A DNA stretch of 64,000 nucleotides from Betaproteobacteria bacterium. GTDB taxonomy: Bacteria; Pseudomonadota; Gammaproteobacteria; Burkholderiales; UBA3065. Under the pieces are notes generated by a model. That model saw nothing but the letters and a program-made list of their open reading frames with translations. It was not told the origin of the DNA and did not search any database. Shown one piece after another: positions 34,420 through 37,138 of this stretch; the first letter of the stretch is position 1, and every line of letters starts with the position of its first letter. A program made the translations under genes and the position numbers. The stretch is taken from NCBI GenBank assembly GCA_027490755.1, contig JAIXXL010000047.1, positions 124,001 to 188,000 on the forward strand, given 5' to 3'.

Positions 34420-35409
34420 TCAGTTGGCCGGGGCGGACAGGGTGGCGGGGTCGACCAGCTTGGCCGGGTCCCACACATCCGGATAGGCCGGAGCGACGTG
34501 GTGCTTGACCGCCCACAGGTACCAGTTGTCGACCACCGTACCGGTCAGCAGGATGCCGATGCCGCCTGTGACACAAGTGAGCACGGCGAACCACCAGGCC
34601 CAACGGTGTACCGATTCCATCGTGGCGTTGAAGCCCATGGTCCAGCGCCAGAACAGTGCCGCGCGCTCCGAAGCGGTACCACGGTCAACGATCTGCTCGA
34701 TCTCACGCTCGCCACCGTAGCGGCTCACCGCGAGGATGGTCGCACCGTGCATTGCGAAAAGCAGCGCTGAACCGTAAAGGAAGGCGATCGAAAGCATGTG
34801 GAACGGGTTGTAGAACAGGTTGCCGTAACGGATCGAGAAGGCGGCCGTCCAGTCGAGGTGCGGGAAGATCCCGAACGGCGGCGCCTCGGACCAACTGCCC
34901 AGCAGGACCGGACGGATTAAGCCTAGTACAAGGTAGAGCCAGATGGCAGCCGCAAATGCCCAGGGCACATGGGTGCCCATTCCCAAGGCCTTGGCGCGAC
35001 GGTACATGCGAAGCCACCAGAGCAGGATCGAGGCGGTGATGAACATGCCGGCGATATTCCACCAGCCACCCTCATTGAGCGGGGCGAGACGCAGACCGTA
35101 CTCGGGCTTGGGCGGTTCCAACGCCAGCCAGAACAGCTGACGGATGAACTGGATCGGGTCGTAATCGACCTGCACCAGCATATTGAAGCCGATGGTGGTG
35201 AACCCGATGATGAAGCAGAACACTGCCGCAACACCGAGGAAACCGAGGTAGATCGGACCGATCTGTGCGTTGCCGAACCAGCCGAGCAGCTTGACGTGGG
35301 CCGGGGTGCCGATGCGCTCACGGGTATCGCGGTCGCGGTCCAGCGGGACGCCGGGATAGCTCGGCGCGTGGGCCTGCACCTGGGTGAAGATGTTCTGATA
35401 TTCAGCCAT
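34420..35409 (-). CDS. pufM: Reaction-centre M subunit
   Basis: 329-residue, five-helix core subunit binding half of the special pair and QA. The conserved residues are in place: His204 (NPFHMLS, special pair), His221, Glu236 and His268, which with two L-subunit histidines bind the non-heme iron. These correspond to R. sphaeroides M202, 219, 234 and 266 with an offset of two. Upstream spacing to pufL is 18 bp. Confidence 0.99.
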
Positions 35410-35427: not shown

Positions 35428-36252
35428 TCAGGACCAGATCGGAATGTTGAGCCACCAGTCCCACCACTCCGGCCAGCCACGTGTCCAGAAGGGTCCGCTG
35501 ATGACGATACAGACGGCGCTGAAGAACACGGCGCCAAGTGCGAGGAACAGGCCCAGACGGTGGATGCCGAGGGTGCCGATGGAGTAGCCGATCGTGTCGC
35601 GGAAGAAGGTGTCCTCATGCTCCGGGGTCTTGACCGGTTGGCCAGGTGCCGGATTGGTCGCGGACAGGATCAGCGAACCATGCAGCGCCAGGGCGAACGC
35701 ATTGCCGAAGAACAGGCTCACCGCGATCATGTGCGCCGGGTTGTAGTGGAAGTGCAGGTACTGGTACCCGACGTTCGACACCCAGTCCAGATGGCTGAGG
35801 ATGCCGTACGGGAAGCCGTGCCCCCAAGCCCCAAGCAGCAGCGGGCGGATGACCACCAGCGTGACGTAGGCGAGGATGGCGAAGCTGAAGGCGAAGGGCA
35901 CGTGCAGGCCCATGCCGAGCTTGCGACTGATTTCGACCTCGCGCAGAGCCCATGAGCCGAACGCGCCGATGGCGCAGACGGTGATGACCTGCCAGAGGCC
36001 GCCCTTCATCAGTGGCGCCAACCCGAGACCGTACTCGAGGTTTGGCGGCGCGATGTTGATCGTCCACGGGTTGAAGACCCCGGCCTGCGAGGTGCCGTAG
36101 AAGATCAGCGCGGTGCCGATGAAGGCGAAGAAGACGGTGGTGAGTCCGAAGAACCCGACGTAGAAGGGCCCCACCCAGAAATCGAAGAGGTCGCCGCCGA
36201 CCAGGGTGCCACCCCTGACTCGATATTTTTTCTCAAAGCTGAGCATTGCCAT
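35428..36252 (-). CDS. pufL: Reaction-centre L subunit
   Basis: 274-residue L subunit. His154, His174 (NPAHMIA, special pair), His191 and His231 match the canonical L153, L173, L190 and L230 after removal of the initiator Met. The start [15 protein letters not shown] follows GGGAG with 7-base spacing; a TTG two codons earlier is less likely. A 139-bp leader separates it from pufA and contains a strong hairpin. Confidence 0.99.
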
Positions 36253-36311
36253 TTTCAATCTCCCGGGCCGGATAAGGAAGGTCGGTCCTTGGTTGAAGCC
36301 AGTTTGCTGAA

Positions 36312-36349
36312 GTGGGCGAGGACAGGACCACGGTCCCGACCTCGCCTAC
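36312..36349 (-). other. Intercistronic RNA hairpin between pufA and pufL
   Basis: GTGGGCGAGG (36312-36321) pairs with CCTCGCCTAC (36340-36349) with one G-T pair, and an inner GGAC/GTCC stem (36325-36336, loop CACG) stacks on it. In Rhodobacter a hairpin at this place protects the upstream pufBA mRNA from 3'-exonucleases and gives a high antenna-to-RC ratio. The same role is inferred here. Confidence 0.7.
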
Positions 36350-36391
36350 CCTTGCTGCGTTTGCTGCGGCTAAGGCGCGCCTGAAGACTGC

Positions 36392-36583
36392 TCAGGACTC
36401 CGAAGCGGCGGCCGGCGGGGTAGCCGAGGCACCCATCACCTGCGCCTGGCTCTTGCCATCCAGCCAGTTGAAACGGTCCGTGCTGAGCAGGATGAGATGG
36501 ATCATCGCTGCCAAACCGAACAGAAAAACGCCCTGGGCAACCATCGCCCGCAGCGGGTCGTACAAACGCCAGATTCTCCACAT
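36392..36583 (-). CDS. pufA: LH1 antenna alpha polypeptide
   Basis: 63 residues: N-terminal [18 protein letters not shown], one membrane helix, and the bacteriochlorophyll-ligating His in [12 protein letters not shown] followed by FNWL, all classic LH1 alpha features. The C-terminal extension ends in [15 protein letters not shown] precedes the ATG and overlaps the stop codon of the 74-codon gene upstream. It is not adjacent to pufB as is usual; see that gene. Confidence 0.98.
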
Positions 36584-36595
36584 GGTTCCAAACTC

Positions 36596-36820
36596 CTAAG
36601 TGAGGTACGACATAAACGTGTACACGGCGGACCGAACATCGCCGACCAGCGTCTGACCGCCCTCGGCACCCGGAAACCAGGTGCGCCACTGCAACGGAAG
36701 AAGCTGAACGATGATGGCTACGGCCAGAAATACGGCGAAACTCACCGCATAGATGCCGCGAAACGTAAACGAGTCACGCTTCAAGGTTTCCTGCAACGCG
36801 TTGCCTGAATTGCTAGCCAT
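36596..36820 (-). CDS. Unrecognised 74-residue single-span membrane protein between pufB and pufA
   Basis: A good ribosome site (AGGGGG) precedes the ATG by 6 bases, the gene begins 23 bp after pufB, and its TAG is merged into the pufA Shine-Dalgarno, so it is clearly a working puf-operon gene. Residues 1-21 are polar with Lys/Arg (ETLKRDSFTFRG), 22-42 form one membrane helix (IYAVSFAVFLAVAIIVQLLP), and the C-terminus (WRTWFPGAEGG...VYTFMSYLT) would be periplasmic by the positive-inside rule. There is no His or Cys, so it cannot ligate bacteriochlorophyll like PufA/PufB. Size and topology recall PufX, PufQ or other small RC-LH1 subunits, but I see no convincing sequence match to any of them. 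Confidence 0.85.
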   Translation of the reverse strand: MASNSGNALQETLKRDSFTFRGIYAVSFAVFLAVAIIVQLLPLQWRTWFPGAEGGQTLVGDVRSAVYTFMSYLT

Positions 36821-36843
36821 GGCATCCCCCTTGTAAACGTGGC

Positions 36844-36993
36844 TCAGTGGAACCAGGGACGCCAGGCCCAGACGAGGATGTGTGCGATCACCGCGATGGC
36901 GGTGAAGCCCACCAGACCCTGCATGTAGAACTGGTGGAACTCCTGGGCTTCCTGGTCAGTCAGGCCGGAAATCGAACCCGATTGCTGTGCCAT
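36844..36993 (-). CDS. pufB: LH1 antenna beta polypeptide
   Basis: 49 residues with the beta-chain pattern [17 protein letters not shown], a single helix, the bacteriochlorophyll-binding His in [14 protein letters not shown], and the usual WxW/RPW end. The ATG at 36993 is preceded by AAGGAG that overlaps the stop of the 43-codon frame upstream. Confidence 0.98.
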
Positions 36994-37006: not shown

Positions 37007-37138
37007 CTACCAAGTGGCCTTACGGCCGTTACCGCGCAAAGCCCGCGCGGCGTGGGCAGCTGCCACGAATGTGACAACACCTTTAGACGGCTGCTGTTCG
37101 GCAGCCGTCGTGTTGGGATCGCGGGCGATGGCGCTCAT
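37007..37138 (-). CDS. 43-residue ORF between bchZ and pufB (possible leader/PufQ-position gene)
   Basis: Its ATG (37138) overlaps the bchZ stop as ATGA and its TAG (37007-37009) abuts the pufB ribosome site, so ribosomes leaving bchZ should translate it. The product starts [20 protein letters not shown] and ends NGRKATW; it is basic, Ala-rich and lacks a full membrane span. This is the slot of pufQ and of the tiny translated pufK in Rhodobacter, but no similarity to PufQ is apparent. A 9-bp perfect hairpin (37086-37109) lies within it. Confidence 0.6.
37086..37109 (-). other. Perfect 9-bp inverted repeat inside the bchZ-pufB gap
   Basis: GACGGCTGC (37086-37094) and GCAGCCGTC (37101-37109) with a 6-base loop. 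There is no T-run after it on the minus strand, so it is not a typical terminator. It could be an RNA stability or processing element at the 5' side of puf mRNA. Confidence 0.5.

Follow-up and report, generated by a model that had tools for sequence, protein, structure and literature searches.

The window analysed here, a 64,000-nt stretch of DNA, carries a puf operon in which the genes run in the order pufB, ORF74, pufA and then pufL, pufM and pufC, with bchC-X-Y-Z upstream (Table 1). pufB and pufA are separated by 260 bp, and the interval is occupied by ORF74, which starts 23 nt past pufB and stops 12 nt ahead of pufA. The original prediction had placed a 74-codon gene here, with a good ribosome-binding site of its own and a stop codon built into the Shine-Dalgarno sequence of pufA; its position is confirmed exactly, on the minus strand, as are its translation signals. 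The product has one transmembrane helix at approximately residues 20–45, followed by a conserved C-terminal tail (residues 50–74), and its sequence contains neither His nor Cys. Its N-terminus, which had been called basic, is weakly so in the window copy (net charge ∼+1), whereas the family mean is close to 0. The window PufB retains the bacteriochlorophyll-ligand His and ends without a C-terminal extension.

Table 1. Genes and other features of the puf region, in window coordinates
Feature	Position	Strand	Details
pufM	34420..35409	minus	Pfam
pufL	35428..36249	minus	Pfam
pufA–pufL intercistronic region	36250..36391	minus	Strong hairpin (GGCGAGGUCGGGACC..GGUCCUGUCCUCGCC), z −2.15
pufA, LH1 alpha	36392..36583	minus	63 aa, His present; passes Pfam LHC; NCBIfam pufA E 4.4e-19
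pufA Shine-Dalgarno region	36584..36598	minus	Overlaps TAG stop of ORF74 (ctcacTTAGGAGtttgg)
ORF74 (ORF2), very probable His-less LH1-beta paralog	36596..36820	minus	ATG to TAG, 74 aa, MASNSGNALQETLKRDSFTFRGIYAVSFAVFLAVAIIVQLLPLQWRTWFPGAEGGQTLVGDVRSAVYTFMSYLT
pufB–ORF74 spacer	36821..36843	minus	Shine-Dalgarno AAGGGGG; no stable hairpin
pufB, short LH1 beta	36844..36993	minus	49 aa; Pfam LHC E 2.1e-13; NCBIfam pufB E 2.9e-24

Contrary to the original prediction, the gene is not new. The puf operon of Rvi. gelatinosus was described with two ORFs of unknown function, of which ORF2 lies upstream of pufA (PMC12817894, December 2025), and ORF2 of Rubrivivax gelatinosus is traced, by way of the citation in that paper, to Nagashima 1994. 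ORF2 was compared there with the alpha (PufA) polypeptides, and such an origin was rejected on account of low identity and the missing His (PMC12817894). In Roseateles depolymerans, ORF74 (RD2015_RS05155) is located between pufB (RS05150) and pufA (RS05160), shares a 1-kb mRNA with pufBA and is one of the three genes with the largest response to carbon starvation, being strongly induced (PMC10037100). From position and length we infer that Rvi. gelatinosus ORF2 and Roseateles ORF74 belong to the same family as the window gene. Both are Burkholderiales genes located upstream of pufA, the Roseateles one being placed between pufB and pufA by its locus number, ORF2 likewise lacks the bacteriochlorophyll His, and the Roseateles name agrees with the 74-codon length of the window gene. 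The published comparison of ORF2 was with alpha only, and kinship with beta is added by the present analysis. We found no published identification of ORF74 as a beta paralog in the literature covered, to which the original descriptions of 1994 and 2002 do not belong; what is new is its assignment to LH1 beta as a paralog lacking the His, the gene itself being already known.

A total of 399 Burkholderiales genomes were scanned with the pufM family, and 47 scored over the cut-off; the DNA upstream of pufM was examined, and the pufB–pufA interval was readable in 43 of the 47, including the window's own. An ORF of 73–79 aa fills this slot in 35 of the 43 readable operons. Five others (G032, G253, G283, G179 and G166) have no ORF74, with pufB and pufA 11–12 nt apart and a PufB of 76–78 aa, and the remaining three (G071, G219 and G188), all from one genus, have a short PufB and a 73-nt gap without an ORF. 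Named carriers found in the contig scan are Rivibacter subsaxonicus, Rubrivivax pictus, Rubrivivax rivuli, strains AAP51 and AAP65 and Comamonadaceae MAGs, and within the window's genus the gene occupies the same slot in four other genomes at 80–91% identity. All 50 distinct homologs (73–79 aa) are located between pufB and pufA, with the stop 10–22 nt from pufA and, in 35 of the 50 loci, overlapping the pufA Shine-Dalgarno sequence. Outside Burkholderiales, a profile search of class and phylum samples revealed no ORF74 in the pufB–pufA slot, these samples being so poor in phototrophs that absence is not proven; the matches there were His-bearing PufB proteins, mostly extended, and proteins encoded in the pufQ slot. 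A MAG contig titled Klebsiella pneumoniae (L031, CAMDGF010000001.1) carries a photosynthesis operon whose ORF74 is 89% identical to that of the window, and the title is almost surely a mislabel.

ORF74 is under purifying selection. Its pN/pS is 0.24 within the genus and 0.18–0.44 across nine groups, compared with 0.00–0.27 for pufB and 0.09–0.32 for pufA in the nine groups, and by this measure it evolves 1.2 to 5 times faster than the neighbouring pufA in eight of the nine. Amino-acid conservation together with pN/pS rules out a chance or non-coding ORF.

Profile comparisons make it nearly certain that ORF74 is a divergent paralog of a C-terminally extended LH1 beta polypeptide. A phmmer search of the PDB with the window protein returned antenna chains only, of beta type where named, the best being 7xxf_B, the LH1 beta of Rhodopila (E 1.7e-9, residues 13–73). 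With the ORF74 profile, the matches included 8z81_B (2.6e-15), 7xxf_B (9e-13) and 9m8m_B (7e-12), and every significant match was an antenna protein of beta type. In hhalign, ORF74 aligned with short PufB (97.3%, E 2.5e-11) and gave no match to PufA, which, together with a shuffle control, rules out kinship with PufA. Among groups defined by gene position and protein length, the closest was the extended PufB of Burkholderiales (E ∼1e-25 over 76 columns), ahead of the extended PufB of other classes (2e-17), PufQ-slot proteins (2e-14) and short PufB (6e-9). The extended PufB of Burkholderiales was also closest in both halves of the protein, at E 4e-16 for the transmembrane part and E 1e-16 for the tail, each taken alone. 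The score of ORF74 against extended PufB was 139, compared with at most 25 for shuffles of columns that preserve hydrophobicity, and over four group comparisons all shuffles scored 29.2 or less against observed values of 139, 95, 79 and 51. The Pfam LHC family (PF00556) matched one of 20 ORF74 members scanned over the cut-off; the Rivibacter homolog passes it at 27.2 against 23 bits, and the window copy has no match over the cut-off.

In a tree of 59 columns whose bootstrap had not settled, ORF74 forms one clade (99/95) next to extended PufB, and the PufQ set forms a separate clade (95/95); a single origin of ORF74, which the tree suggests, rests on it. An AlphaFold model of ORF74 had a mean pLDDT of 64, with a helix at approximately residues 20–40 (pLDDT 80–84) and a second helix at 56–73 of low confidence; a Foldseek search of the PDB with this model gave no match, and the PDB copy searched contained no chain identified as ORF74. 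The extended beta proteins, comprising PufB of the five Burkholderiales operons with a 76–78-aa form as well as 7xxf_B, 8z81_B and 9m8m_B, are homologous to ORF74 over both helix and tail and share with it a W-R-x-W-(L/F)-P-G motif and the tail sequence G-V-K-A-A-V. Unlike ORF74, they retain the conserved histidines, and the PDB entries show them as the ring polypeptide, present in many copies, whereas ORF74 is devoid of the ligand and is accompanied by a short, His-bearing PufB.

In the ligand column of beta, His is present in none of the 50 distinct ORF74 proteins versus 58 of 58 PufB. Gln is found in 32 (Gln39 in the window copy), Ser in seven, Thr in four, Glu and Ala in two each, and Gly, Leu and Cys in one each. 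The original prediction of a protein free of His and Cys holds for the window copy but not for the whole family, since some relatives carry His elsewhere, never in the ligand column, and one has Cys there. The second conserved beta His is gone in 47 of the 50 and kept in three. The Trp at +6, a residue that in LH1 beta contacts the bacteriochlorophyll acetyl group, is present in 49 of 50, as is the next Arg; the Pro of WRPW is replaced by Ser or Thr in 47, and P50, G51, V62, V66, Y67 and S71 are invariant. Considering that the ligand His is absent while Trp, Arg and tail are conserved, the pigment site would be gone and the interface and tail kept. Since the ligand His is missing from all 50, we class ORF74 as a beta paralog and not as a working antenna beta. 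The earlier picture of a real single-helix protein tied to the LH1 genes, encoded in the antenna part of the operon and devoid of a bacteriochlorophyll ligand, is upheld, and the protein is conserved.

The tail is distributed between the two genes in a reciprocal manner. PufB ends one to three residues past W-R-P-W in every ORF74 locus, and tail-bearing PufB is found in five of the eight operons without ORF74, these counts not being independent events given shared genome ancestry and operon transfer. Among matches in the other classes sampled, extended PufB is the common form. The three genomes of one genus that have a short PufB and no ORF74 indicate that neither tail nor ORF74 is indispensable. 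Their operons (L094, L098 and L102) represent a natural absence of both. Genus g29 holds both forms, extended PufB without ORF74 (L083, L089 and L091) and short PufB with ORF74 (L079–L081, L112 and L116). In a PufL tree with several open forks, the extended-PufB operons of g29 group with alphaproteobacterial ones, suggesting that this form of the operon was acquired by transfer. Because of operon transfer, the PufL tree leaves the distinction between a single and a multiple split blurred at the operon level.

Strong RNA structure lies 3′ of pufA at every one of the 50 related loci; beside ORF74 there was none, but the spacers there are short, so that the lack of structure is partly trivial. 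The strong hairpin past pufA would place ORF74 within a probable hairpin-protected antenna segment of the mRNA, and the pattern at the 50 loci fits a stabilised pufB-ORF74-pufA message. An equal mRNA level of ORF74 and the antenna genes does not show equal protein. An Rfam search gave no credible match, and a promoter and terminator scan gave none.

As to function, the sequence evidence tips slightly in favour of ORF74 being a structural subunit of RC-LH1. An ancestral extended LH1 beta may have been duplicated and one copy become ORF74; PufB would then have kept the pigment and dropped the tail, and ORF74 would have kept the tail and dropped the pigment. Through a beta-like helix face, ORF74 would pack against an LH1 alpha, with its N-terminus inside and its tail on the periplasmic surface, and would work as a pigment-free structural subunit of the core, either capping or interrupting the LH1 ring to leave a quinone opening or acting as a strut at the ring edge. 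Because it would be unable to complete a bacteriochlorophyll pair, a cap or interruption would be the most likely of these arrangements; the ring-cap position specifically is proposed tentatively. Equally tentative is the broader idea that many phototrophic Burkholderiales use a pigment-less beta-type subunit, derived from a split extended beta, to open or cap the ring for quinone exchange, as a solution independent of PufX, protein-W and gamma.

PufX, protein-W, protein-U/Y and LH1 gamma are small pigment-free membrane proteins of RC-LH1, PufX being encoded in the puf operon, and the original prediction had likened ORF74 to PufX and other such subunits. By sequence this kinship is not borne out, ORF74 being by all indications an LH1 beta paralog; it differs from all of them in its gene position and probable beta derivation, and no sequence match to them was found. 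For PufX, ORF74 had no Pfam family match, and neither the single-sequence nor the profile matches in the PDB included a chain of PufX, LH1 gamma, protein-W or protein-U. Kinship with PufX was rejected on the lack of a sequence match and on the placement of the ORF74 gene before pufA.

Alternatively, ORF74 could act outside the mature complex as an assembly or biogenesis factor, either PufQ-like, binding ferrochelatase and steering porphyrin flux, or as a helper of LH1 assembly. We regard this as rather unlikely, although several observations speak for it. PufQ sets porphyrin flux from inside the puf operon (PMC5725709), the Pfam PufQ family (PF05398) found no protein over the cut-off in any of 23 Burkholderiales searched, and in the window operon no PufQ is encoded upstream of pufB, where pufQ usually lies. 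PufQ and the PufQ-slot proteins resemble ORF74 in size (∼74 aa), single transmembrane helix and conserved tail, and the alpha- and gammaproteobacterial PufQ-slot proteins are related to it by profile (hhalign E ∼1e-15, with shuffles far lower). However, PF05398 gave no match to the window copy even with an E limit of 10, nor to any of 20 members at 0.01, and the similarity to annotated Rhodobacterales PufQ is marginal (E 1e-4) and covers the transmembrane part only. With its tail alone, ORF74 matches the PufQ set at E 2e-5, much more weakly than it matches extended PufB, and the tree likewise separates it from the PufQ set. The PufQ tail, ITPxIFSA in Rhodobacterales, is predicted to be cytoplasmic, whereas a beta-like tail would be periplasmic. 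ORF74 is located downstream of pufB and not in the canonical PufQ position between bchZ and pufB. A displaced PufQ, an identity raised by the profile match to PufQ-slot proteins, was rejected on the basis of Pfam, the tail comparison, the clade and the comparison with Rhodobacterales PufQ. A clear match to a known PufQ or PufX family, the possibility that the original prediction had named against itself, was found neither in Pfam nor in the PDB nor with Rhodobacterales PufQ.

The PufQ-slot proteins have ties of their own. Annotated Rhodobacterales PufQ links to them (E 3e-7) and not to beta, and those of alpha- and gammaproteobacteria (L127, L134, L157, L159 and L161) are related to extended LH1 beta (hhalign E ∼1e-11 to 1e-18, with shuffles far lower); one PufQ-slot protein (G423) has His at the ligand column. 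PufQ-slot proteins thus appear to share a wider family with extended beta, and PufQ may be of common descent with LH1 beta.

Less probable than an assembly factor is a peripheral strut resembling the gamma polypeptide, with many copies placed between the betas outside the LH1 ring, where they would close pores and lend the ring stability, as in Blastochloris and Rhodopila. A single helix that has no pigment ligand and is encoded at the antenna mRNA level would suit such a role, and in Rhodopila 11 of the 16 pores are closed by gamma-like peptides (PMC9640540); but the Rhodopila peptide is no longer than 22 residues, and gamma peptides run in the opposite orientation to beta. ORF74, in contrast, is in all probability a beta homolog with a conserved tail, and its PDB matches include no gamma chain. 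It is more doubtful again that Gln39 takes over from His as bacteriochlorophyll ligand, making ORF74 an antenna beta that gives a second LH1 spectral form. Gln is able to ligate chlorophyll in plant antennas, it predominates in the ligand column, and Trp +6 is kept; yet the other 18 homologs have seven different residues there and the second beta His is mostly gone, and a conserved ligand would not vary in this way. That the reading frame is mainly a spacer separating translation of pufB and pufA, its product being unimportant, is scarcely credible, since the tight coupling to pufA that favours it is outweighed by amino-acid conservation and pN/pS, and Rhodobacterales pufB and pufA are adjacent (∼10–20 nt) with no spacer.

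As a putative structural subunit, ORF74 makes a good candidate for a component of the photosynthetic core complex that has yet to be characterised in Burkholderiales. A conserved, co-transcribed puf gene of cultured betaproteobacteria has been on record since 1994 as an ORF with no assigned function, and its probable identity as a beta paralog leads to a concrete question, namely how the LH1 ring is shaped and quinones are let through in these common freshwater aerobic phototrophs. It would also offer a case of gene duplication after which one protein retained the pigment and the other the tail.

A further small ORF of 43 aa (window 37007–37138, minus strand) is located directly upstream of pufB, with its ATG overlapping the bchZ stop. 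Its position corresponds to that of ORF1 in Rvi. gelatinosus, its C-terminal end recurs in relatives, and the RNA around it folds unusually well (z −3.3).
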